Source: Crystallibacter degradans
GTDB taxonomy: Bacteria > Actinomycetota > Actinomycetes > Actinomycetales > Micrococcaceae
Length of the DNA: 64,000 nt
Assembly: GCF_012952295.1 (NCBI RefSeq)
Contig: NZ_JABBCH010000006.1
Span: 62,001 to 126,000 of the forward strand
Reading direction: 5' to 3'
Below are positions 49,289-62,143 of this stretch, in pieces. Made by a program: the position numbers and the translations under genes. Numbering within the stretch: the stretch's first letter is position 1; each line of letters starts with the position of its first letter. Below the pieces are notes generated by a model. That model was not told the origin of the DNA and did no database searches. It saw only the letters and a list, made by a program, of their open reading frames with translations.

Positions 49289-49765
49289 CTACGCGCATGC
49301 TCCGGTTCCTCCGGATTGAGTCAGGTTGAAGACGAACATTTCCTCCCCGGCAGATCCACCTGTCACGCGAACCCTCCAGCCGCTCTTCAAGTCAAGATCC
49401 GACTGTGTTAGCTGCAGTGTCATCAGACCAGTTCCGGAATCTATCGGTACAAAATCGAAGGGCTTCTGCTGACCAGGTGGTGCATGCCCCTCGCCGTTCA
49501 TCCAGACGGCCTCAAGGACGTACTCAATTCCCGGAACTTGTGCCCACTGAATCGTGAACGTCGTTCCGTCAGTGGAGACCGTACAAGTTGGAGACCAACT
49601 TTCGGTCACAATCTCGATGCCTACCGTCGCTAACTGGGACCACCTTGCGACGGCGCATGTTCCGCCAAGACCCATGAGGACAACCAGGCAGAACACGACA
49701 GCGGCGCCTTTAAAGCCCGGCATCCGTCGAAGGCGATAAGGCAATGGCCCGCCCTGAGCGCTCAA
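49289..49765 (-). CDS. Small secreted or membrane-anchored protein of the SipW locus
   Basis: 158 aa if translation starts at the TTG at 49765, which overlaps the signal peptidase stop as TTGA; an ATG at 49723 gives 144 aa. A hydrophobic segment at about 18-35 is a signal or anchor. The rest is beta-rich and fibronectin-like (TIQWAQVPGIEYVLEAVW; LTLQLTQSDL-type strands), with a pair of Cys near the end and start of the exported part. No known family. Position suggests coexpression with the SipW signal peptidase. Confidence 0.65.
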   Translation of the reverse strand: MSAQGGPLPYRLRRMPGFKGAAVVFCLVVLMGLGGTCAVARWSQLATVGIEIVTESWSPTCTVSTDGTTFTIQWAQVPGIEYVLEAVWMNGEGHAPPGQQKPFDFVPIDSGTGLMTLQLTQSDLDLKSGWRVRVTGGSAGEEMFVFNLTQSGGTGACA

Positions 49766-50322
49766 GATGCTTTCTTCTTTCGGCGGGAGTCCCGGGTACC
49801 GCGAGCAATACTGTACATTCCATAAGCGATTAGCCCTACAGCCAGCCATTTGACCAGGCCGTCACGATTACCGCTTTCCATCCAGTTGGATACCCACCCC
49901 ACGTACGGAACGGCGTATAGAAGTTTTCCTCTGACCTGAACTTCCTGGACTGGAACTTCATCCTCGACAGAGTTACTGTCGCCCTTCGTGATGAGAGTCC
50001 GATCGCCTTCCTGATTTGCCCCGACGGACACGATTCGGTGTGTGATGACTTCTGGTTTCCCGGAGTCTAGCTGATAGGTAATGACGTCGCCGAGTCTCAG
50101 GGAACCGAAGTCGGCTGGCTTCACGATCATCAATGTGCCCGGTGGATACTTCGGAGCCATCGAATTCGTCAGTACGGTATACGGCTGTGAGCCCGTAGCT
50201 GCGGGGATGACGATCAGAGTCCCGGCCGCAAGCAGGGCCAGACAGAGCGCCACGAAGCCTATGGCCTTGCCGAGGAAGTGCTTTATTTGATGTGGCTTCG
50301 CCTCAACATAGGTGGCTGTCAT
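49762..50322 (-). CDS. Signal peptidase I, SipW-like (Ser-His type)
   Basis: 186 aa with N-terminal (about 20-42) and C-terminal (about 155-172) membrane helices. Catalytic Ser54 in TNSMAPKYPPG; the position of the usual general base Lys is occupied by His95 in ITHRIV, as in the SipW/eukaryotic branch. D115 in TKGDSN is also conserved. It would release proteins with SipW-dependent signal peptides, such as the two encoded just upstream. RBS for this gene is weak; the gene lies 10 bases after the preceding one. Confidence 0.92.
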   Translation of the reverse strand: MTATYVEAKPHQIKHFLGKAIGFVALCLALLAAGTLIVIPAATGSQPYTVLTNSMAPKYPPGTLMIVKPADFGSLRLGDVITYQLDSGKPEVITHRIVSVGANQEGDRTLITKGDSNSVEDEVPVQEVQVRGKLLYAVPYVGWVSNWMESGNRDGLVKWLAVGLIAYGMYSIARGTRDSRRKKKAS

Positions 50323-50332
50323 GATGTTCCGT

Positions 50333-50908
50333 TCAGAGCTGGTTCACAATAATGGGGACGTCGACGCGAGCCGAACCGCCACCTGGCGCGTCCCCGGTCA
50401 TGAGGATCTGAAAACAAAAAACAGCTGAGCTGTTCTTGCTGATGGTGGCAGTGGCAGAGCCCGAGGACGATATGCCGGCAAAGTCTTCCGCTGAGCAGTT
50501 CGTTTTTTCGATCGGCACGGCCTGCATGTTGACTGACAGCAGCCCCGAGAGGCCGGGCGCAACATTGGTAATGCTCACGTCGCCGGTGCTGGCCCGGACC
50601 GCGAAATCCGAGCCAGCATTTGTGACGTTAGAGATCCTGACCCCTGCATACGCAGGTTTCCCTGGCGAAGGACTGCCGGTTGGTTTCAAAGACACCAGCG
50701 CTGAAGTCCCGGCGCTGTCTGTCATATCAATCGGAACGCCAGTGCTCAGATCAGTCAGGCTCACACGGAAATCCGCTGCTTGGATGGTGCCGGCCCCCAC
50801 CGGCACCATCTTGTTCCACAGCGCATAGGTCCCCTGGACCGTCAAGAAGCCAAGCACGATGGCGGCAGCGAGGAGAGCACTGGCCTTCATTATGGACTTG
50901 GTCCCCAT
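50333..50908 (-). CDS. SipW-dependent-type exported protein (TasA/camelysin-like)
   Basis: 191 aa. The N-terminus has the long hydrophobic core plus TYALWNKMVPVGAGTI, the ALW-type cleavage region of SipW substrates. The mature part is a beta-sandwich-like domain with small and polar residues, two Cys, and SNVTNAGSDFAVRAS-type strands. Likely a surface fibre or matrix component. Located between the first exported protein and the signal peptidase gene in one operon. Function inferred from locus. Confidence 0.8.
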   Translation of the reverse strand: MGTKSIMKASALLAAAIVLGFLTVQGTYALWNKMVPVGAGTIQAADFRVSLTDLSTGVPIDMTDSAGTSALVSLKPTGSPSPGKPAYAGVRISNVTNAGSDFAVRASTGDVSITNVAPGLSGLLSVNMQAVPIEKTNCSAEDFAGISSSGSATATISKNSSAVFCFQILMTGDAPGGGSARVDVPIIVNQL

Positions 50909-50977: not shown

Positions 50978-51505
50978 CTACGGTGCTACCTGCCTGAGTT
51001 TGTACTGGACCTTGCTGAAGTCGTAAACGGCTTCGACATCGTCTCGGCCTTTACCCAGCTCGTCACCGGTTTTGGGGCTGAACCTAAACGACGCCGACGC
51101 CGTAACTTCGCCGGATTTCTTTATTTGTGCTATCCGGTTTCCGTCAGAATCCGACAGTTGTAGATTCCGTACAGAGATGTTTGACGCCTCAAAGTCCGTG
51201 ACTGTATCCCCAATCACCTCGATCACAGCGTTGATCCGCTGACCAGCTAGTGTCACGTCTAGTGTTTGGGTGTAGGTCAGGACGTCTCCTGGAACCACCT
51301 TGTAGCTTTTGACATCGATTTCTGTGCTCGGGTCGTGTGCGGAGGTCCAGACACCGCTCCTCGCTTCAAGATCAAGATTGCCCGCGGTGATCGTCCCCGC
51401 GTCGGTGCCCACACTGTCATTCCACACGGCCAAAGTTCCGCCGCCTCCGAGAAGCAGTGCTACTCCCACCCCGGTCGCAATCGCACCCTTTGTCATCTTG
51501 TTCAT
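50978..51505 (-). CDS. Alternate-type signal peptide exported protein
   Basis: 175 aa from the ATG at 51505. The signal (KGAIATGVGVALLLGGGGTLAVWNDS) has the Gly-rich core and AVWNDS end of actinobacterial alternate-signal-mediated exported proteins processed by SipW-like enzymes. The mature part contains YTQTLDVTLAGQRINAVIEV and EVTASASFRFSP-type strands, consistent with a fibre-forming beta protein. First gene of the SipW operon; its promoter side carries two tandem CTCAAG repeats. Confidence 0.83.
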   Translation of the reverse strand: MNKMTKGAIATGVGVALLLGGGGTLAVWNDSVGTDAGTITAGNLDLEARSGVWTSAHDPSTEIDVKSYKVVPGDVLTYTQTLDVTLAGQRINAVIEVIGDTVTDFEASNISVRNLQLSDSDGNRIAQIKKSGEVTASASFRFSPKTGDELGKGRDDVEAVYDFSKVQYKLRQVAP

Positions 51506-51559: not shown

Positions 51560-51612
51560 CTCAAGAATCGCTTTTGGGAACATGAAAGAAAACCGGAAGA
51601 TTTCCTCAAGAT
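51560..51612 (+). repeat. Two single CTCAAGA-type sites facing the Hpt-like gene
   Basis: CTCAAGAA at 51560-51567 and CTCAAGAT at 51605-51612, on the opposite strand to the tandem pair in the same divergent region. The spacing (45 bases) is roughly four helical turns. They may be additional half-sites of the same regulator. Confidence 0.4.
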
Positions 51613-51634: not shown

Positions 51635-51656
51635 GCAATCTTGAGCCGATCTTGAG
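51635..51656 (-). promoter_or_regulatory. Tandem 11-bp CTCAAG direct repeats upstream of the SipW operon
   Basis: Reading toward the operon: CTCAAGATCGG then CTCAAGATTGC, directly followed by TTGACG (a possible -35). Direct repeats one helical turn apart are the usual binding pattern of OmpR/PhoB-type regulators. The same arrangement precedes ugd at 59521-59542. Confidence 0.6.
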
Positions 51657-51769
51657 TCTTTCTTGCCGTGCATCCTGAGTATGGCAAGGCACGATGATCC
51701 TCGTAGCGAACTACAGGGTCAGGGAACAAGTGCGGGCGGTCAATTGACTGGCAGAAGGGCGGTAGCGGT

Positions 51770-52162
51770 ATGCCGAAAGTTGCGCCGCTAGTCTCTCTGG
51801 AGACGCTGCGTCAGCTGGCGGCTGAGCTTGAGGATGAAGAGAGATGCCGGTCATTCGTCCGGAACTTCATCTGCATTTGGGACGAACGACATGCGCGGCT
51901 ATGCCAGGCTATCCAGGCTTCTGATGCAAAGGCTGCCATGGACGTGGTCCTGAGCCTGAAGGTATCCAGTGCGATGGCCGGCGCCGGCAGGCTGTCCCAG
52001 TTGGCAGCAAACCTGCAAGCGATGCTACTTCGTCTGGGCGAGGACATCAGGACTTCCTGCACGTTGAGCCTATTGGAAGAAATCACTGCGTGTGGTCGCG
52101 CCACCATGGCCCAGCTACGGCTGGACTACCTGGAAGCAAAAGCAGAGCGTCAGAGGAACTGA
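51770..52162 (+). CDS. Hpt-like protein lacking the phospho-accepting histidine
   Basis: 130 aa, all-helical four-helix-bundle pattern. The usual Hpt motif H-x-x-K-G-S-S reads L61-S62-L63-K64-V65-S66-S67, so the phosphorylatable His is Leu and the Gly is Val, while Lys, Ser-Ser and the following hydrophobics are kept. It therefore probably binds receivers without phosphotransfer. Divergent from the SipW operon and convergent with the response regulator gene. Confidence 0.7.
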   Translation: MPKVAPLVSLETLRQLAAELEDEERCRSFVRNFICIWDERHARLCQAIQASDAKAAMDVVLSLKVSSAMAGAGRLSQLAANLQAMLLRLGEDIRTSCTLSLLEEITACGRATMAQLRLDYLEAKAERQRN

Positions 52163-52223
52163 ACGGCGTCAGATACTCCGGCGTGGGAGGGCAAAGCCAG
52201 ACGCCCGGATACAGCGGGGTCGG

Positions 52224-53054
52224 TTAGCGGAGAGTCTTGGGGGCTAGCCGGTAACCGACTCCGCGAACGGTCTCCAGCCACCGCGGCTCACGCGAGTTAT
52301 CGCCCAGTTTCCTGCGCAGATTACCGATGTGGACTTCGATAGCGCGCATATCGGCGTCGCTGATGAACGAGCCGGTGTCATAGTCCTCGTAGCGCAGCCG
52401 GCGCACAAGGTCCGTCTTCGTGCGCACCACTCGCCCGCTTTCCATCAACGCGTGGAGCAGGTCGAATTCGGTGCGGGTGAGCTCAATCTCCTGGCCGTTG
52501 ACCTCGGTAGTTCGCGTTTGGTGGTTCAGCAGAAGCCCGTTGTGCAAGTAGGTGCCGGGCGGGTTTCCATTAGTCGCTGGTTCGGCTATCTGAGTCTGGC
52601 CATTGCTTTCCGGCTGCTCTGATCCGTTGGCCGGGGCGGCTGGCACCGGTGTCTGCCCCATGGGAGACGCACCAGTGTCGCCCATACGTGGCCGACGGAG
52701 CATCGCTGCGACGCGGGCCCGCAGTTCGCGCGGGCGGAAGGGTTTGGTGATGTAGTCATCGGCGCCGGATTCCAGCCCCAGCAAGGTATCAAGCTCTTCG
52801 GCGCGTGCGGTGAGCATGATGATGTAGCTATCGCTGAAGAGACGGATCCGTCGGGCTACTTCGAACCCGTCCATATCCGGCAGGCCAAGATCCAGAGTGA
52901 CGATGGACGGGTCATGTTTCTCCACGGCATGCACGCCTTCTTCACCGCTCGCGGCAGCATGGACCTCGAAGCCAGATTGAATCAGAACAGCCTCGATAAG
53001 GTCCCGTATGTCGCGGTCATCCTCGACGATGACTGCTACCCGTGATGCTTCCAA
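52224..53054 (-). CDS. OmpR/PhoB-type response regulator
   Basis: 276 aa from the TTG at 53054 (GGGGGGA RBS); a GTG at 53093 is an alternative. Receiver domain about 4-120: acidic pair E11-D12-D13, phospho-acceptor D55 in TLDLGLPDMDG, and KPF switch Lys. A Pro/Gln/Asn-rich linker (about 130-175) is followed by a Trans_reg_C winged helix (ELTRTEFDLLHAL, then IEVHIGNLRRKLG and VRGVGYRL). Divergent from the histidine kinase gene, its likely partner. It is the leading candidate to bind the CTCAAG repeats. Confidence 0.9.
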   Translation of the reverse strand: MEASRVAVIVEDDRDIRDLIEAVLIQSGFEVHAAASGEEGVHAVEKHDPSIVTLDLGLPDMDGFEVARRIRLFSDSYIIMLTARAEELDTLLGLESGADDYITKPFRPRELRARVAAMLRRPRMGDTGASPMGQTPVPAAPANGSEQPESNGQTQIAEPATNGNPPGTYLHNGLLLNHQTRTTEVNGQEIELTRTEFDLLHALMESGRVVRTKTDLVRRLRYEDYDTGSFISDADMRAIEVHIGNLRRKLGDNSREPRWLETVRGVGYRLAPKTLR

Positions 53055-53268
53055 AATCCCCCCGAACTTTTTGCTCGCACACCCATGATGCACCTCGATG
53101 CAACAACTGTTCGTATTATACCTTTCACCAAGGACACTTTTTGCGGCGCTGCCGGGCTACCATGGCCGGAACGGGACAGGCCCACCTTTATACTGAATTT
53201 CCGGCGGGAAGAACAAACTGTGCCGGGTATCAGGTCTCATCTGCTGCAGGAACAGGAAACCGGGGAAC

Positions 53269-54987
53269 ATGTCCGCAGTCGTCAAGAACGCGCTGGCCAT
53301 GATCGGCGTGCGGAAGCAGTTTCATGAGCTGAACCTGCGGTACCGGGTCTTCCTGAGCCAGATGCCGCTGGTCATTTCCGTGACTTTGGTGGCCCTGGTG
53401 GCGGCAATCTTCTTCCCGACCACTCTTGACAACGTCGCTTTCCAGGCGGGGCTCATCATGCTGGCAGTACTGACGGCAGCCAGCTTTCTGGTCCCTTGGG
53501 ACCGCCTGCCCTACCCCACCTACTGGGTCATCCCGCTGCTGGATTTCGTTGTTGTAGCGGCGCTGAGGACAGGCGGGGCGGAGTCGCTGAGCGGGCTGAG
53601 CATGCTGGCGGTTTTCCCGGTGTTCTGGTTGGCATGGTCCGGCATAGCGCCAGTTGCCGCCAGAATCATCAGCTTCTTCGCACCCTTGCTGCTGGTCTGG
53701 GTACCCGTTCTGACCTCCGGTGAGCCGGTTACCGCAGCCGGGCTGGCCGATCCATTCCTGATTCCCATCATCATGCTCGCCATTTGCGTTACCGCGTCGA
53801 TATTCAGCCTGAGCGAGACGGACAAACAGGAAGTCCTCGAAGCCAAAGACCGCGAACTTCAGGCTGTCCTGGATGAAACCCGGGACCGCTCCAGGCTCAT
53901 GCAGACGATGATGGACACGGTCGGCGTCGGTCTGGTCGCCGTGGACAAGGACGGGCACGACATCCTGATGAACCGGCGCCAGCAGCAGAACCATATGCTG
54001 GCAGCTCCCCCGGGAAATACTGATCCCAACGAACGTCAACTGCACGTGTACAAACCGGACCGAACCTCCCCGATTCCGCCGGAGGAGCGGCCGGTCTTGA
54101 GGGCCGTGCGCGGGGAGACCTTCTCCGACGAATTGGTCTGGATCGGTGAGGGCAAGCAGCAGCGGGCAATGTCCATCTCCGCCAGGTCCATGCGGGACGA
54201 CGACGGCACCTTCGCCGGTTCTGTCGTTGCCTTCAGCGATGTCACGGACCTGGTGAACGCCCTGGCTGCCAAAGACGATTTCGTCGCCAGCGTGTCGCAC
54301 GAGCTGCGCACCCCACTGACCTCCATTATCGGCTACCTCGATCTGTCGCTGGAGGAGACCCAGCTGAAGGATCCGGACGGCTCCTTGGCCGTATCCCTAC
54401 GCGTAGCGCTGCGCAATGCCGAGCGCTTGCTCCAGCTGGTCTCGGACCTGCTCACTACCGCCTCCGGCCCGGCTAAGATCGAGCAACGCAACGCCGATCT
54501 GGCCGAGGTCATCGCGTCCTGCCTGGCTTCGGCAACACCTCGGGCGGAGGAAGCCGGCGTCGTACTGGTCAATGAGAGCCCTAGCGATCTCGAGGCGTTC
54601 ATTGACCACGACCGAATGTGCCAGGTGATGGACAACCTGCTCTCCAATGCCATCAAGTATTCCCCCGCCGGCGGTCGTGTTACCGTCCGTGCATGGCAGG
54701 CAGAGGGCCGGGTCGGCTTCGAAGTCGAGGACCACGGCATGGGCATCGCGGAAGAAGACCTGGGCGGGGTCTTCACCAAGTTCTTCCGCACTCCCACGGT
54801 GCGCAGGGCGGCGATCCCCGGAGTTGGACTTGGCTTGGTGATCACCAAGGCGATCGTGGAGGCGCACGGCGGCTCGATCAGCTTCACCAGCAAGCTCGGC
54901 AAGGGCACCACGTTCACGGTCCTGCTTCCGGCCGACGGCGGTGACCGGACCCCTTCTACGGAGACGACGTCGGCGGACAGGGTTTGA
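53269..54987 (+). CDS. Membrane sensor histidine kinase with PAS domain
   Basis: 572 aa. Four to five hydrophobic helices in the first about 190 residues form a membrane sensor; then a coiled helix, a PAS-like domain (about 215-330), HisKA with His344 in SHELRTPLTSIIGYLDL, and a HATPase domain with DHGMGI and GVGLGLVITKAI boxes. RBS GGGGAA. Divergent from the OmpR-type regulator and overlapping the VanZ gene by one base (TGATG), so VanZ is translationally coupled to it. Confidence 0.92.
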   Translation: MSAVVKNALAMIGVRKQFHELNLRYRVFLSQMPLVISVTLVALVAAIFFPTTLDNVAFQAGLIMLAVLTAASFLVPWDRLPYPTYWVIPLLDFVVVAALRTGGAESLSGLSMLAVFPVFWLAWSGIAPVAARIISFFAPLLLVWVPVLTSGEPVTAAGLADPFLIPIIMLAICVTASIFSLSETDKQEVLEAKDRELQAVLDETRDRSRLMQTMMDTVGVGLVAVDKDGHDILMNRRQQQNHMLAAPPGNTDPNERQLHVYKPDRTSPIPPEERPVLRAVRGETFSDELVWIGEGKQQRAMSISARSMRDDDGTFAGSVVAFSDVTDLVNALAAKDDFVASVSHELRTPLTSIIGYLDLSLEETQLKDPDGSLAVSLRVALRNAERLLQLVSDLLTTASGPAKIEQRNADLAEVIASCLASATPRAEEAGVVLVNESPSDLEAFIDHDRMCQVMDNLLSNAIKYSPAGGRVTVRAWQAEGRVGFEVEDHGMGIAEEDLGGVFTKFFRTPTVRRAAIPGVGLGLVITKAIVEAHGGSISFTSKLGKGTTFTVLLPADGGDRTPSTETTSADRV

Positions 54988-55676
54988 TGCGGCAGGCGTT
55001 AGGGACCAAGTTGGGGACGTGGGCAACGAAGTTGGGGATGTTGGGACAGAAGTTCGGGACAAAGCTGGCACCGCTGTCGGCAAAGTTGAAATCCGCCGTG
55101 CTGGCGATGCGCCGGTCGCGGCTCTGGGCCAAGCTTGAATCCTGGTTCCGGCGACGGCACGACGCCAAGAACGGCGCCCGGCTGCTGAGGGCACCGGCCG
55201 GCGGCCGGCGCGGGCATCTGCCCGGCTTCCTGCTGATCGGTTACCTGCTGACGGTGGCCTTGGTAGTTCTATGGCCAACGCCCGTGGACCGCGACGCGAG
55301 CGGCACCATCCTGCAGGTGCTGGCGAAGCTGCATGCCTTCGGCGCGCCGGACTGGATCGATTACAACCTGGTGGAGACCAGCGCCAACATTGTGATGTTT
55401 ATACCGATCGGTCTGTTGGGCGGCACCCTCCTGCGCGCCGGCTACCGCTGGATCGCCGTGCCCGCTGCCTTCGCCGTCTCGTTCCTGATCGAACTGGTCC
55501 AGGACACGTTCCTGCCCGGCCGCTTCGGGACTATGCAGGATGTCCTTGCCAACACCCATGGCTCGGCGCTGGGCCTGGTGATCCTATATGCGTTCCTCGA
55601 ATACCGGCGCATCGCCAAAGAGGACGCCGCCGCCGAACATCCGAAACAGATGAACGACGGCGGCGCTGACCCCTAG
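54987..55676 (+). CDS. VanZ family membrane protein with heptad-repeat N-terminus
   Basis: 229 aa. ATG at 54987 overlaps the kinase stop as TGATG. Residues about 1-50 are basic heptads (KLGTWAT-KLGMLGQ-KFGTKLA), probably amphipathic. Residues about 80-210 carry VanZ-like helices with NIVMFIPIGLLGGTLL and LIELVQDTFLPGRFGTMQDVLANTHGSALG, the family hallmark. VanZ-type proteins affect glycopeptide resistance or envelope anchoring; role here unknown. Confidence 0.85.
   Translation: MRQALGTKLGTWATKLGMLGQKFGTKLAPLSAKLKSAVLAMRRSRLWAKLESWFRRRHDAKNGARLLRAPAGGRRGHLPGFLLIGYLLTVALVVLWPTPVDRDASGTILQVLAKLHAFGAPDWIDYNLVETSANIVMFIPIGLLGGTLLRAGYRWIAVPAAFAVSFLIELVQDTFLPGRFGTMQDVLANTHGSALGLVILYAFLEYRRIAKEDAAAEHPKQMNDGGADP
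55008..55070 (+). repeat. 21-bp tandem repeats in the vanZ N-terminus
   Basis: AAGTTGGGGA-type cores at 55008, 55029 and 55050 are exactly 21 bases apart, encoding seven-residue units beginning K-L-G, K-L-G and K-F-G. The third core has one base change (C for G). Confidence 0.7.
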
Positions 55677-55700
55677 CTGTAGCGCTCGGTTTATTTTCGG

Positions 55701-57218
55701 CTACTTCTGTGCGGCATTGCCCTTGAACTTCATGTCAGCAGCACCGCTGTTGGAACCTCCCTTGGCCGTGCCATTGACCGCGGAAGTGGTCTCGGCAAAG
55801 GTCAGCGTGGCGTGCGCAATGGCATCGGACATCTGTTCCAGGGCGTCCATGCTGATATTGCTAAGATCGTCGCAGACCGTGTGGTAGCAGGGGTCGTAGG
55901 CTGCGCCCGCCGTGCCACCGAAATCCTTGGCCTGCTCTTCGCTCTTGATCCCTTCGGCGCCGGTGAACAGGCCACCGGCCGGAATGCCGTTTTCAATGAA
56001 GGCAAAGTAGTCGGAGCGCCCGTCAAAGGCCGTCGGCGCTGAGGCCAACCCCTGCGAGGCGAAGTAGTCGTTGAAGACGTGTTCAATATGAGCGGACCCG
56101 TTCGGACCGACCTGACCGAAAGCATCGCCGTCGCCGTCGTACACAAAGCGTACGAAGTTAGGCGAGCCCACCATGTCGAAGTTCAGGTTGAGTGCGTGCT
56201 GCTTGATCTCCTCCTTGCTCAGCTGGGAGACATAGTGGGTGGAACCGATCAGTCCGCTTTCCTCTGCTCCCCAGAACGCAAAGCGCACGCGGTTGCGCGG
56301 CCCGTCTTCGTCCTGCTCAGCCATCTGGATGGCTGTCTCCAGGATGGCAGCGCTGCCGGAGCCGTTGTCGTTGATGCCGGCGCCTTCGGCCACGCTGTCC
56401 AAATGGGCGCCGACCACTACGGTGCGGTCCGCGCGCCCGGCGGTGTCCGCCAGGATATTGAAGGTCCTCGACTGCTTGACTTCAGCATCAACCTTGACGC
56501 GCACCGTTGTCGCCGGATCCGCGGCCAGGGCCTGACCCACCGCGTAGGTGGCACCGACAGTCGGGATCTTAACGGCCTCGCCCAGCGTGCCGTTGAGGAG
56601 GCCGGACCGGTCGTCCCCGTTGCCCTGGTTGAAGATGATGGCTGCCGAAGCACCTGCGGCCGCAGCCAGTTGTGCCTTCACTCCGAAGGTGCAGGTGCCT
56701 CGCTGGATGAGCGCGATGTTGCCGGCCGTGAAGCCTTCGAAGTCGGCCGCTTCGCATCCGCTGGTCGAGGCCGCCGGATCGGTGAAGTTCACGTCCACCG
56801 CTGTTACTGCGGCCTCGACTTCGTCCGCACCCGAGTACTCCATGGTCGTAAAGTCGGTTCCGTTGATGTAGGTCTTCTCCGTCGGCGAGACCTGTACCAG
56901 CTCCGATGGTGTGTGCTCGACGAACTGCTCGTAGTCGAAGTACTGGCGCTCCGGATCATAGCCGGCATCCTTCAGTTCGGACTCGATGTACTCGGCACTT
57001 GCCTCGTAGCCTTCCGTTCCGGCTGCGCGGTTCCCGTCGTTGTTCCCGGCCACTTTCTGGAGTTGTTCAAGGTGGTCCATGATGCTCTCAGCAGTGACGG
57101 CTTCACGCAGCTTTTCCGTGTCCGTCCCGTTGTCCGCGTTGGCGGGCAGCCCGGCGCCGAGTGCCAAAGCGACGACGGCGGTTATCGCCCCGATGCGCTT
57201 ATTGCGACGATGATTCAT
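55701..57218 (-). CDS. Secreted M28 aminopeptidase with PA domain
   Basis: 505 aa from the ATG at 57218 (AGGGGA 9 bases upstream; ATG at 57227 also possible). Signal peptide ends ANADN. M28 zinc-peptidase ligands: H in AHLDS, D in INDNGSG, E-E in WGAEESG, D in DGRSDY and H in CYHTVCD. A PA domain is inserted before the catalytic core (about 105-230, GFTAGNIALIQRGTCTFGVKA). The tail is Gly/Asn-rich. Likely an exported aminopeptidase; paralogue of the next gene. Confidence 0.9.
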   Translation of the reverse strand: MNHRRNKRIGAITAVVALALGAGLPANADNGTDTEKLREAVTAESIMDHLEQLQKVAGNNDGNRAAGTEGYEASAEYIESELKDAGYDPERQYFDYEQFVEHTPSELVQVSPTEKTYINGTDFTTMEYSGADEVEAAVTAVDVNFTDPAASTSGCEAADFEGFTAGNIALIQRGTCTFGVKAQLAAAAGASAAIIFNQGNGDDRSGLLNGTLGEAVKIPTVGATYAVGQALAADPATTVRVKVDAEVKQSRTFNILADTAGRADRTVVVGAHLDSVAEGAGINDNGSGSAAILETAIQMAEQDEDGPRNRVRFAFWGAEESGLIGSTHYVSQLSKEEIKQHALNLNFDMVGSPNFVRFVYDGDGDAFGQVGPNGSAHIEHVFNDYFASQGLASAPTAFDGRSDYFAFIENGIPAGGLFTGAEGIKSEEQAKDFGGTAGAAYDPCYHTVCDDLSNISMDALEQMSDAIAHATLTFAETTSAVNGTAKGGSNSGAADMKFKGNAAQK

Positions 57219-57380
57219 TTGTGTCATTCCCCTGATTTCGGTTGAATGTCGCCCGGCATGGCCCCCAACACCGGTCGTGTTGCTGACGTTAGTCGAGGGA
57301 ATCCCGGGCTGGAAGAGCGCACAACCAGTTCGCCCTGCGAGGAGGGAGAATCGCCATCAGGGGTTGACAAAACGTTGTGC

Positions 57381-57401
57381 CGGACTCGGAAACTGAGTCC
57401 G
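57381..57401 (-). terminator. Hairpin between the two M28 genes
   Basis: 7-bp perfect arms CGGACTC / GAGTCCG (57381-57387, 57395-57401) with a 7-base loop, 34 bases beyond the stop of the short M28 gene on the minus strand. Confidence 0.5.
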
Positions 57402-57434
57402 AACTCGAGCCGCGGCGGTCCGGGCTAAGCCTCC

Positions 57435-58460
57435 TCAGTCCTCCGCGGGAGTGGCCGTGGCGAAGGCGATGGTGGCGTGTGCCAGGGCGTCCGCCATGTC
57501 CTCGAGCAGGTCCGTGTCCACGTTCTCGATCGTGTCGCAGGACCGGTGGTAGCAGCTGTCGTATTCCAGCCCCGCTTCGCCGCCGAAGTCCTGCACTTCG
57601 GCCCCGCTCTTGGTGCCCGCGTCGCCGGTGAAGAGCCCGCCGGCGGGAATGCCTGCTCTGAGGAAGGCCGTGTAGTCGGAGTCCCCGTCTTCGAACGGAG
57701 TGGGCAGCACCTCAAGTCCGCGGTCCGCAAAATAGTCGACGAAAACGTCCTCAATCTCATCCGACCCATTTGGTGCGTTGTCGCCGAAAGTCGAGCCGTC
57801 GCCGTCGTGCACAAATCGCACGCCGTTGGGTGAGGCCACCATGTCCAGGTTCAGGTAGACCGCATGCTGCCGGGTCTCGCTGCCGCTGAGTTCGTCCACG
57901 TAATGCTGCGATCCGTTCAGCCCCTCCTCCTCGCCGCCCCAGAACGCGAACCGCACCTTGTTGGTCGGCTCGATCCCAAAGTCCGCCATCCGCAGTGCCG
58001 TTTCGAGGATGGCGCCCACCCCGCTGGCGTTGTCGTTGATGCCGGGCCCGCGGCGCACCGAATCCAAATGCCCGCCCACCACAATGATGTGCTCGTCGCT
58101 GCCGCCGGTTTCCGCGAGGATGTTGAAGGTCTCGACCTCCTCGCCGTCGTCCCTGTACGTGAAATGCTGGCGCACAGGGTTGTACCCGGCCGCGCGCAGC
58201 TGCTCCTCGACATACCGGGCGGATTCCTCGTAGCCGGAACTGCCGGCGGCCCGGTGGCCGCCGTTTGCATCGGCCACGTCCTGAAGCGCCTCGAGGTGAT
58301 CCATGATGTCCCGGGCGTTAACGGCCTCGCGCAGCGCACCGGTGTCAGCGCTGTGCGTGGGAACCAGCGGCGGCGGAGCGGCGGAACAACCTGCAAGAAC
58401 AACGACGGCGGCCGCGGCCGCGGCGGCAAGACCTGCCCGGACACCTCTATGCATTTTCAT
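57435..58460 (-). CDS. M28 family peptidase, lipoprotein, without PA domain
   Basis: 341 aa from the ATG at 58460, RBS AGGGGG. Lipobox VVLAGC with Cys at about residue 25. Zinc ligands correspond to those of the neighbour: H in GGHLDS, D in INDNASG, E-E in WGGEEEG, D in GDSDY and H in CYHRSCD. The PA domain is absent: the sequence passes straight from the YNPVRQHFTYRD region to FNILAE. A surface-tethered aminopeptidase in the same cluster as a secreted one. Confidence 0.9.
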   Translation of the reverse strand: MKMHRGVRAGLAAAAAAAVVVLAGCSAAPPPLVPTHSADTGALREAVNARDIMDHLEALQDVADANGGHRAAGSSGYEESARYVEEQLRAAGYNPVRQHFTYRDDGEEVETFNILAETGGSDEHIIVVGGHLDSVRRGPGINDNASGVGAILETALRMADFGIEPTNKVRFAFWGGEEEGLNGSQHYVDELSGSETRQHAVYLNLDMVASPNGVRFVHDGDGSTFGDNAPNGSDEIEDVFVDYFADRGLEVLPTPFEDGDSDYTAFLRAGIPAGGLFTGDAGTKSGAEVQDFGGEAGLEYDSCYHRSCDTIENVDTDLLEDMADALAHATIAFATATPAED

Positions 58461-58484
58461 GGATGTTCCCCCTTGCGATGAAAC

Positions 58485-59339
58485 TTAGCGCATCTGCACG
58501 ACCGGCGGAAGTACTTTCTGCGTCAAACCCAGGCACAGCCAGAAGCACACCGCATAAGCGCCCAGAACCGCGGCGGAGACAAGCGACGACGGCGAGAAAT
58601 CCGCCCCGGCCGAGGCGTCCAGCAGCACCCCGCCCAGCAGCAGGAACAGGCCGCCGGCCGCCGTCACTGCGCCGGGCGCCAGCACGCTGGCAATCAGGAC
58701 CACGGCCACGCCGGCGATCGCCCAGATCCAGCCGTCCCCGGGCAGCTCCAGCGTTGCCAAGCCCGTGGGCGCGAGGCAGAAGGTCAGCAACACCAGGGCG
58801 GCATACGTGCACATTCCCACGTCAAGGATGGAACCGTGGCTGCCAATTTTGTGCAGCGTATTGGGCAGGACCGCGATGAACGCGGCGGCCAGCAGCGCAA
58901 TGTAGGCCGCCGTCCAGAAGGGGCGCGGCAGCCCGGCTGCGGGGGACTGCACCGCCAGCTCAAAGTATGCAGTGCTCGCGTAGAACACTGCGGCCGCGGC
59001 GATGATGAACTCGATGAAAGACCGGACAAGGTGCAGGCTGCCCGACCGCGCGGGCCGCTGCCGGACGAAGCTGCAGAAAAGCCCGTAAACAGCGCCGGCC
59101 GCCAGGCCTGCCCCGATCATCTCTGAGGTCCCGCCGCCGGTAAGCCCGGCGAACAGGGCAGTTGCCATGACGCCGGTGAAAAACGTGGACGGCAGCATGG
59201 CTGGGTCGGCCTTGAGCAGCCGCGGCGGTTTGCGCTGCAGCGCGAAAAACAGGAACACCAGGGCCAGACACAGCACACCGACCAGGACCGTTCCGTTGTC
59301 CGCTGCGGCATGGACGCGCGCGCTCATGAATCCGGTCAT
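58485..59339 (-). CDS. Polytopic membrane protein of unknown function
   Basis: 284 aa, eight or nine hydrophobic helices from residue about 18 to the end, with short loops and small residues (LTGGGTSEMIGAGLAAGAVYG). No motif of a known transporter or enzyme is visible. Start could be the ATG at 59339 or an internal ATG 12 bases later. Located between the M28 genes and ugd; divergent from ugd. Confidence 0.7.
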   Translation of the reverse strand: MTGFMSARVHAAADNGTVLVGVLCLALVFLFFALQRKPPRLLKADPAMLPSTFFTGVMATALFAGLTGGGTSEMIGAGLAAGAVYGLFCSFVRQRPARSGSLHLVRSFIEFIIAAAAVFYASTAYFELAVQSPAAGLPRPFWTAAYIALLAAAFIAVLPNTLHKIGSHGSILDVGMCTYAALVLLTFCLAPTGLATLELPGDGWIWAIAGVAVVLIASVLAPGAVTAAGGLFLLLGGVLLDASAGADFSPSSLVSAAVLGAYAVCFWLCLGLTQKVLPPVVQMR

Positions 59340-59520
59340 GGCAACACCAGCTGTTCTGCACAGCCGGCTGTTCGATAGTTCTGCCCAGATTTATGGATGG
59401 CACTTTGGACGCGAAAAAGTACAGACATATGAGTTCCCCAACTCCCCACTAATCGCCCATCGCGTGGCCGTCCCCAGATGGCACAGGCGTTTAGGCTTGT
59501 CCACACCCTAAGGCATGAAC

Positions 59521-59542
59521 CTCAAGGTCCCCTCAAGTTCCG
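59521..59542 (+). promoter_or_regulatory. Tandem 11-bp CTCAAG direct repeats upstream of ugd
   Basis: CTCAAGGTCCC followed directly by CTCAAGTTCCG, about 80 bases before the ugd start and oriented toward it. Matches the pair before the SipW operon in both period and orientation. Confidence 0.6.
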
Positions 59543-59621
59543 TGCCGTTTTAATCTTCTCTTCATGTTTGCGGGATACTGTCAATAGGGTTTTTCCAAGA
59601 AGTCTCGTTCAAAGGATCTGT

Positions 59622-60935
59622 ATGCGTATCTCCGTCATTGGCTGTGGTTACCTAGGCGCCGTCCACGCGGCTTCCATGGCCAAGCTCGGTCACGAAGTCG
59701 TCGGCATCGATGTGGACCAGCGCAAGATCACCGAGCTCCAGGCCGGCCGCGCACCGTTCTTCGAGCCCGGCCTGCCGGAACTGCTGACCGAGGTCCAGGA
59801 GACCGGCCGGTTGAAGTTCAGCACGTCGATGGCCGACGCCGAAGGCGCCCAGGTCCACTTCGTCTGCGTCGGCACCCCGCAGCGCAAGGGCGAATACGCC
59901 GCGGACCTGACCTACGTCGACTCCGCGTTCTACGAACTCATCCCCTACCTGCACGAGGGCGACATCGCCGTCGGCAAATCCACTGTCCCGGTGGGCACCG
60001 CCGCCCGGCTGGCCGACATGGTCGCTGCCAAGGCGCCCGGCGCCGTCCTCGCCTGGAACCCGGAGTTCCTGCGCGAAGGCCACGCGGTGAAAGACACCCT
60101 CACCCCGGACCGCTTCGTCTACGGCGTCCCCGCCGGTGAGCGGGGCGCACGCGCCACCGCCGCCCTGGACGAGGTCTACGCCACCCCGCTCTCCAACGAC
60201 ACCCCCCGCCTCGTGGTCGACTACGCCACCGCCGAACTGGTCAAGACCGCCGCGAACTCCTTCCTGGCCACCAAGATCTCCTTCATCAACGCCATGGCCG
60301 AAGTCTGCGAAGCCGCCGGCGCCGACGTGACCGCCCTCGCCGACGCCATCGGCATGGACGAGCGGATCGGCCGCAAGTTCCTCAACGCCGGCGTCGGCTT
60401 CGGCGGCGGCTGCCTGCCCAAGGACATCCGCGCCTTTATGGCCCGCGCCGGCGAACTCGGCGCCGACCAGGCCCTGACCTTCCTGCGCGAAGTCGACGCG
60501 ATCAACATGCGCCGCCGCTCCCGCGTCGTCGAACTGACCCGCGAACTCGTCGGCGGCTCCCTGATCGGCAAACGCATCACCGTCCTCGGCGCAGCGTTCA
60601 AGCCCGAGTCCGACGACGTGCGCGACTCCCCCGCACTCAGTGTCGCCCAGCAGCTCCAACTCCAGGGCGCCACCGTCACCGTCACGGACCCCGAAGCGCT
60701 GCCCAACGCCAAGGGCCGCTTCCCCGAGCTGTCCTACGAACCGGACACAAAGACCGCGCTGGCCAAGGCCCACGCCCTGGTACTCCTGACCGAATGGAAG
60801 GAATACCGCGAACTGGACCCGTCCGCCGTCGCCAATCTCGTGGACGAGAAGTGCATTCTCGACGGCCGCAACGTCCTCGACGCCGCAACCTGGCGCGACG
60901 CCGGCTGGACCTACAAGGGCATCGGCCGCCCCTGA
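59622..60935 (+). CDS. ugd: UDP-glucose 6-dehydrogenase
   Basis: 437 aa, RBS AAAGGA. Oxidises UDP-glucose to UDP-glucuronate for cell-surface polysaccharides. Motifs: Rossmann MRISVIGCGYLGAVHA, VDYATAELVKTAANSFLATKISFINAM, catalytic Cys264 in GFGGGCLPKD, and the C-terminal DSPALSVAQQL and DGRNVLD. A related GDP-mannose or UDP-ManNAc dehydrogenase is the main alternative, but the length and motif set fit UGD. Upstream CTCAAG repeats link it to the SipW locus. Confidence 0.92.
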   Translation: MRISVIGCGYLGAVHAASMAKLGHEVVGIDVDQRKITELQAGRAPFFEPGLPELLTEVQETGRLKFSTSMADAEGAQVHFVCVGTPQRKGEYAADLTYVDSAFYELIPYLHEGDIAVGKSTVPVGTAARLADMVAAKAPGAVLAWNPEFLREGHAVKDTLTPDRFVYGVPAGERGARATAALDEVYATPLSNDTPRLVVDYATAELVKTAANSFLATKISFINAMAEVCEAAGADVTALADAIGMDERIGRKFLNAGVGFGGGCLPKDIRAFMARAGELGADQALTFLREVDAINMRRRSRVVELTRELVGGSLIGKRITVLGAAFKPESDDVRDSPALSVAQQLQLQGATVTVTDPEALPNAKGRFPELSYEPDTKTALAKAHALVLLTEWKEYRELDPSAVANLVDEKCILDGRNVLDAATWRDAGWTYKGIGRP

Positions 60936-61867: not shown

Positions 61868-62143
61868 CTACACGTTGCTGCTTTCGCCGAGGACCCGCAG
61901 CCGCTCCTGGTATTCGTCCAACGTGATCCGGCCGTGGGCCAGCCTCTGGTCCAGGATCTGTCGTGCCACGCTTCGGGGCGGCGGTGCATGATGCGTTGCT
62001 GCCGGGGTCAACAGGTACGGCTCGCCGCCACGGGTGGCGGTCACAAAGGCCCGCACCACCATGACAGCCAGCAGCACCACAACCATCAGCAGCACCAGGC
62101 CGAAAAGCCAGGCTCCTCCGACTAAGAACCATTCTGCATTCAT
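61868..62143 (-). CDS. SHOCT-domain small membrane protein
   Basis: 91 aa from the ATG at 62143, GGGAGA RBS. One long transmembrane helix (about 5-30), then a linker and the C-terminal SHOCT motif ARQILDQRLAHGRITLDEYQERLRVL. Such proteins are frequent in actinobacteria, without a known function; the SHOCT motif may mediate oligomerisation. Confidence 0.85.
   Translation of the reverse strand: MNAEWFLVGGAWLFGLVLLMVVVLLAVMVVRAFVTATRGGEPYLLTPAATHHAPPPRSVARQILDQRLAHGRITLDEYQERLRVLGESSNV

Follow-up and report, generated by a model that had tools for sequence, protein, structure and literature searches.

OmpR-type proteins are suited by 11-bp direct repeats, and the pho box ends in a half-site placed ~10 bp before the -10 element (PhoB geometry). 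In Bacillus, tapA-sipW-tasA is a matrix operon. Here, we analyzed a 64,000-nucleotide stretch of the Crystallibacter degradans genome (NZ_JABBCH010000006.1, positions 62,001 to 126,000; hereafter, the window), in which a two-component system lies beside a tasA-like/SipW-type operon, and focused on a direct-repeat pair, CTTGAG-N5-CTTGAG (hereafter, the box), which reads CTCAAG-N5-CTCAAG on the opposite strand. The box is likely to be the operator through which the OmpR-type response regulator (RR) of this system would activate the gene for an Hpt-fold protein lacking the phosphoacceptor His (pseudo-Hpt), the tasA-like/SipW operon, putative small RNAs, and presumed matrix genes.

The proposed operator resembles those of PhoB/OmpR regulons in its 11-bp tandem direct repeats, in a last half-site predicted ~10 bp upstream of the -10 hexamer, and in the winged helix of its RR. 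It differs in that the half-site is CTTGAG and that the promoter-proximal unit lies 22-23 bp on, with the unit between being degenerate. The operon is like Bacillus tapA-sipW-tasA in combining a SipW-type signal peptidase with an alternate-signal-peptide substrate, but its neighbours are a pseudo-Hpt gene and a two-component system, and both equivalog models fail. Loci and genomes are hereafter denoted by our labels L and G, respectively.

Enrichment of the box and its linkage to the response regulator

An earlier note on this DNA had described two CTCAAG direct-repeat pairs, and both were confirmed. The first (51640-51656) reads CTCAAGATCGGCTCAAG on the minus strand and, in the working direction defined below, CTTGAG-CCGAT-CTTGAG on the plus strand; the second (59521-59537) reads CTCAAGGTCCCCTCAAG on the plus strand and CTTGAG-GGGAC-CTTGAG on the minus strand. 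These were the only two matches in the window, compared with none in 100 shuffles. Across the genome (4.96 Mb), eight exact matches were found against none for a reversed-pattern control, such that the motif neither occurred at chance frequency nor lay mainly in coding regions, and the pairing of repeats is real and far beyond chance. All eight sites were intergenic as judged by site midpoint and gene calls from our own codon-usage script; the L001 box overlapped the last bases of a called gene, though intergenic by midpoint. Boxes with one mismatch in this genome were at background level (13 vs. 17 in the control) and were not used. One of the eight boxes (L006) lies ~136 bp from a tRNA gene (Rfam match).

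The note had also placed an OmpR-type regulator with its kinase between the repeats, and such a pair is present. The RR (52224-53054, minus strand), which we propose as the binder of the box, contains a receiver domain (PF00072, 9.6e-28) and a winged helix (Trans_reg_C, PF00486, 2.1e-20), and a PAS-containing histidine kinase (53269-54987, plus strand) is its presumed partner based on the domain scan and the loci of relatives. The RR scored below the cut-offs of all NCBIfam equivalogs among the 25 listed, including MtrA (169.6/300, the best) and TIGR02154 PhoB (156.7/296.2). Searching genome contigs with the RR returned generic matches across many phyla and was uninformative.

To survey the box at the family level, we compared the motif with the reversed-pattern control in 197 genomes of the same family. 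The motif was found at 130 places in 67 genomes and the control at 78 places in 61 genomes. We defined RR-bearing genomes by a best match of E <= 1e-50 among the matches listed, a cut-off of our own choosing. The 89 genomes so defined held 103 motif and 40 control places, whereas the remaining 108 held 27 and 38, respectively (Fisher p 5e-5, which is only a guide because the genomes are related). Among the RR relatives listed, which extend down to about 1e-51, 34 of the 130 motif places were within 10 kb of a relative compared with 1 of the 78 control places, and 17 compared with none were within 1 kb; such clustering recurred in many genera. After removal of identical contexts, 131 motif rows yielded 119 unique sites, of which 19 were coding, compared with 22 of the 40 control sites fetched from the 78 control places. 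Nine of the 130 motif places stand outside the site and promoter counts and are represented by 20-kb loci only (G117, G131 [two], G170 C15 [two], G189, G191 [two], and G030 C11). A tblastn search with the window proteins in 40 RR-centred regions of 39 genomes detected hpt, the pseudo-Hpt gene, in 25 and the tasA-like gene in 21.

These comparisons bear on the explanation that the boxes belong to another transcription factor and that the RR is merely a neighbour. It would account for the 96 of 130 boxes that were not within 10 kb of an RR relative (among the matches listed) and for the own-genome copies of a ~130-nt element described below, which lie on contigs other than that of the RR. However, genomes that lack this RR subfamily show no motif excess and boxes cluster at the RR, and 11-bp direct repeats are what an OmpR-type protein would be expected to bind; we therefore consider another factor rather unlikely, and the assignment of the boxes to a regulon of the neighbouring RR appears well supported by these genomic patterns.

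Working direction and promoter architecture

Next, we examined the flanks of 100 intergenic sites for further half-sites. In the CTTGAG direction, an additional TTGAG began 23 or 24 bp past the start of the second half-site at 22 sites, and a third tandem copy at 11 bp was present at 7, with all other offsets at 2 or fewer. In the opposite, CTCAAG direction, no TTGAG offset exceeded 3. The resulting working layout is CTTGAG-N5-CTTGAG, N16/17, CTTGAG (the -28 element), N10, and a -10 box. To characterize the promoters further, we picked 28 rows for TTGAG or CCTGAG at +22/+23, which gave 24 distinct promoters after removal of near-identical ones. Counted from the promoter-proximal half-site, positions +17 and +21 were A and T, respectively, in 24 of 24, and neither column had been used in the selection. 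The two columns, four bases apart, fit the A and the last T of a -10 hexamer; the last CTTGAG would therefore sit 10 bp upstream of the -10 element. The hexamer one turn past the second half-site matched CTTGAG at 2.38/6, somewhat above most offsets (between 1 and 2), which is consistent with a degenerate further contact.

The earlier suggestion of a direct-repeat operator of the OmpR type is supported by 11-bp tandem sites placed at a predicted -10 element, seen both in the tasA-like promoters and in 28 of the 119 unique sites. Its companion claim, that the boxes point toward the tasA-like gene and ugd (a nucleotide-sugar dehydrogenase gene), respectively, was not supported: the promoter signature runs the opposite way, and no recurrent element was found in the CTCAAG direction.

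The pseudo-Hpt gene as the probable target of the first box

In the working direction, the first box faces hpt (51770-52162, plus strand), a gene absent from the earlier note. A CCTGAG promoter-proximal half-site (51674-51679, plus strand) starts 23 bp downstream of where the second half-site starts, and the predicted -10 hexamer CACGAT (51690-51695, plus strand) that follows supplies the A (+17) and T (+21) columns. The box at 51640-51656 thus probably serves the divergent hpt rather than the tasA-like gene, because the promoter signature points there. In G001 and G003, nhaA adjoins and tasA-sipW is not at this locus, and the box and CCTGAG still precede hpt. Among genes downstream of boxes in the working direction, hpt formed the largest cluster, with 16 sites, 6 of which had the -28 element; in these clusters, a triple repeat is counted once for each of its two registers (L051 and L052).

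The AlphaFold2 model of the hpt product was a helical bundle (mean pLDDT 95.3). Hpt proteins or domains occupied the first 23 ranks of a Foldseek search, with a best E of 1.2e-3 and none at E <= 0.001, and the best match was HptB of Pseudomonas aeruginosa (PDB ID: 7c1i; TM 0.74/0.83). The two are alike in fold; HptB has the His of an AHSFK motif, which a Leu of the window protein faces in a weak sequence alignment (E 0.094). None of the 47 aligned rows has the phosphoacceptor His in that column, which holds Leu in 44, Gly in 2, and Ile in 1; the rows include at least five genes twice. Against the Pfam Hpt gathering score of 24.6, the window protein scored 24.2 and the L051 homologue 24.7. The predicted structure and the alignment describe a protein that is Hpt-like in fold and, because the phosphoacceptor His is missing, cannot have a normal phosphotransfer role. 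We propose that this pseudo-Hpt has a binding or feedback role.

Two plasmid-borne homologues of pseudo-Hpt had no exact box: one (L336; Arthrobacter sp. TMP15) was beside ice-binding and sortase genes, and the other (L337; Paenarthrobacter sp. OM7) was beside pilin and sortase genes.

The tasA-like/SipW operon and its separate predicted promoter

The operon comprises the tasA-like gene with an alternate (SipW-type) signal peptide (50978-51505, minus strand), a second gene without a family match in our scans (50333-50908, minus strand), and a gene for signal peptidase I of the SipW/archaeal type (49762-50322, minus strand). The alternate signal region was above the cut-offs of TIGR04089 (131.9/60) and TIGR04088 (30.8/19), and the peptidase passed TIGR02228 (89.5/51.85). 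The peptidase failed the Bacillus SipW equivalog NF046067 (71.9/190), as did the tasA-like protein the TasA equivalog (21.7/450).

Upstream of the tasA-like gene, on the opposite strand of the intergenic region that holds the hpt box, lies a degenerate array with an 11-bp period, CTTGAG-N5-CTTCCG-N5-CTTTCA (51583-51610, minus strand), followed by a promoter-proximal CTTGAG (51560-51565, minus strand) and a predicted -10 hexamer, CAAGGT (51549-51544, minus strand). In 18 anchored tasA-like promoters, the same A (+17) and T (+21) were present in 94% each, and the best half-site offsets before CTTGAG were -45, -52, -23, and -34. A box with 0-1 mismatch was near tasA in 18 of 21 tasA-like loci. 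In the downstream-gene set, which omits L110-L114, TIGR04089-type tasA was only on the other side of the box (11 cases). In two other genera (L099-L104, L106, and L110-L114), the box, read in the working direction, faces tasA; it is exact in L111, L113, and L114 and has one mismatch in several more loci. Control of tasA as such is therefore likely, as judged from the promoter sequences.

The box upstream of ugd

The second box is adjacent to ugd, a nucleotide-sugar (UDP-glucose type) dehydrogenase gene by model match (59622-60935, plus strand), and to a divergent gene without a Pfam or NCBIfam match (58485-59339, minus strand). Among six aligned genomes of the genus, the ugd box was found in four (G000, G001, G003, and G007) and was absent in G005 and G009. 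The core promoter of ugd (59547-59587; GTTTTAATCTTCTCTTCA...TTGCGGGATACTGTCAATAG) was nearly invariant in all six, box or no box, and the ugd box had no -28/-10 partner. The divergent 58485 gene may be the target of this box, or the box may act from upstream or be inactive; its link to ugd is unproven.

In the version of the earlier note, the RR would bind the two boxes and, acting in the CTCAAG direction, would have direct control of the tasA-sipW operon and of ugd. Both boxes are indeed upstream of those genes, G001, G003, and G007 keep the pair at a distance of ~7.9 kb, and G001 retains both half-sites of the ugd box despite differences at two spacer bases. On the other hand, the box on the tasA side is kept in genomes whose locus lacks the operon, no recurrent promoter element was found in the CTCAAG direction, and the ugd box is missing in G005 and G009 despite the conserved ugd core promoter. 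We consider this version unlikely overall; the CTCAAG direction was rejected toward tasA in the window and is unsupported for ugd. The proposed distance of less than 130 bases stood for ugd, whose box lies 84-85 bp away, and not for the first box, which is 134-135 bp from the ATG at 51505. Likewise, conservation held near 18 of 21 tasA-like operons, whereas at ugd it was limited to the closest four genomes.

A conserved ~130-nt element downstream of the box

A conserved intergenic element of ~130 nt follows three boxes in the C. degradans genome (L003-L005), as well as boxes in G001, G003, and G007. Thirteen full copies (L143-L155; a further match, L346, was in G002) were preceded by an exact box in nine cases, a degraded box in three, and none in one. 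The element showed two predicted hairpins with GGGG loops and a strong 3' hairpin, with a consensus fold of -42.9 kcal/mol and compensatory change in only 2 of 45 predicted pairs. By eye, no T run followed the last hairpin. Rfam gave no match for L003-L005 at gathering score or for L143, L151, and L155 at E up to 1. An RNA model built from the 13 copies, searched with stricter filters that lose weak matches, returned 15 matches in 5 of the 197 genomes, all from one genus; the fifth of these genomes, G002, gave a weak match (E 0.003) that was ~40 bp from an independently found exact box. The reading of the element beside L003-L005 as a small open reading frame was rejected, as the copies differ by single-base gaps. 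Conservation, promoter, and hairpins suggest, without proving, that the element is a small RNA, and transcripts are predicted to start at or near CAGCAGATGG.

The copy L152 and the weaker relatives L157 and L158 keep CTTGAG near the start with no box, which would suit an explanation in which an alternative sigma factor uses CTTGAG plus the -10 box as its core promoter, with the upstream pair as an accessory. A 10-bp gap between CTTGAG and the -10 box is too short for a sigma -35 element, and the half-sites are spaced by whole turns, both of which argue against such a promoter and render it very unlikely. That the motif comprises chance or repeat-element copies without a regulatory role has a negligible probability: several sites are beside copies of one repeated ~130-nt element, but the shuffles, the reversed control, the intergenic location, and the promoter phasing across unrelated genes contradict a chance or coding origin.

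Other genes headed by the box

Genes for GGDEF proteins in three genomes and for BcsB-like proteins in two were headed by a box with the -28 element. Scanning of selected target proteins (L012, L036, L039, L040, L045, L241, L271, and L282) also identified glycosyltransferases (L241 and L271), camelysin-type proteins (L012 and L282; L283 is from the same cluster), and a DksA-type zinc-finger protein. Judged by family names, the targets other than DksA would suit surface or matrix build-up.

In G139, the boxes of the BcsB-like and GGDEF genes (L036 and L239) are ~6 kb apart and mark a candidate polysaccharide locus; such boxes were also found in L039, L040, and L041, and the L041 box lies 16 bp after a glycosyltransferase gene. 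In four genomes of one genus (L045-L048), a conserved box separates the DksA/TraR zinc-finger gene from a small gene divergent to it.

Proposed mechanism and its weighing

Based on these data, we propose that the neighbouring OmpR-type RR has CTTGAG-N5-CTTGAG as the strong portion of its operator. Dimers of the phosphorylated RR would occupy half-sites that are whole turns apart and thus share one face of the DNA. The final half-site, located 10 bp before the -10 hexamer, would replace the normal -35 element, and the bound RR would recruit RNA polymerase as PhoB does. In the window, the RR would activate the pseudo-Hpt gene and also, by way of the other, degenerate array, the tasA-like/SipW operon divergent from it; at other places in the genome, the RR would drive the family of ~130-nt RNAs. 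In related genera, the same box would place diguanylate cyclase, BcsB, glycosyltransferase, and camelysin-type genes under a common surface or matrix control. The enrichment of the box, its linkage to the RR, its direction and spacing, and the -10 columns are seen directly in the sequences; binding by the RR, activation, RNA transcription, and a matrix function are what we infer from them.

Several observations weigh against this proposal. The -28 element was at the right spacing in only 28 of the 119 unique sites and was lacking at four of the eight own-genome sites (L001, L002, L006, and L008), at 10 of the 16 hpt sites, and at the boxes of the glycosyltransferase, camelysin-type, and DksA-type genes, the last of which is box-headed in four genomes. 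The 24 promoters fall into only about ten unrelated target groups, and they carry the weight of about ten independent cases. Among 22 tasA-like upstream regions, three had no CTTGAG anchor (L121, L122, and L124); one of the 18 anchored promoters was anchored 152 bp from the ATG, and the exact box points away from tasA in g1, g4, and g17. Three genus members with an RR relative (G004, G006, and G008) have no exact box, and neither do the five plasmid records (six places) with homologues. Even so, we regard the box as a probable RR operator. The regulon of fibre, peptidase, and polysaccharide genes suggested by the earlier note is supported in its RR-linked operator and in the surface and polysaccharide genes among those headed by the box, and is revised in the orientation of the boxes and the partner of the first box.

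A wider reading, which we hold tentatively as something short of an even chance, is that the boxes delineate an undescribed matrix regulon of Micrococcaceae-like bacteria, whose most frequent target, the His-less Hpt, would serve as a phosphorylation-independent feedback partner of the RR or kinase, and in which one genus would have captured, as an additional output, a multi-copy small RNA family whose members carry paired hairpins with GGGG loops. The parts of the sources available among the top matches listed in our literature search contained no account of such a regulon. For an actinobacterial two-component system associated with SipW-type genes, the box offers a concrete candidate operator and, if the proposal is true, a single DNA code joining small RNAs, fibre-type proteins, a cyclic di-GMP enzyme, and polysaccharide genes of the BcsB type. 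It also draws attention to a widespread family of His-less Hpt proteins, whose role is open to direct testing.

Neighbouring genes and plasmid-borne modules

Between the kinase and ugd, two adjacent genes (55701-57227 and 57435-58460), which may encode peptidases, were 55-60% related to each other in tblastn and are kept in members of the genus. The three best plasmid homologues of the RR and the three of pseudo-Hpt were from Arthrobacter and Paenarthrobacter. The plasmid record of Arthrobacter sp. NicSoilB11 contained two one-mismatch boxes. On one Arthrobacter plasmid (NZ_AP024658.1), the hpt-RR-kinase module occurred twice in opposite orientation (L338 and L339), with two one-mismatch boxes nearby.

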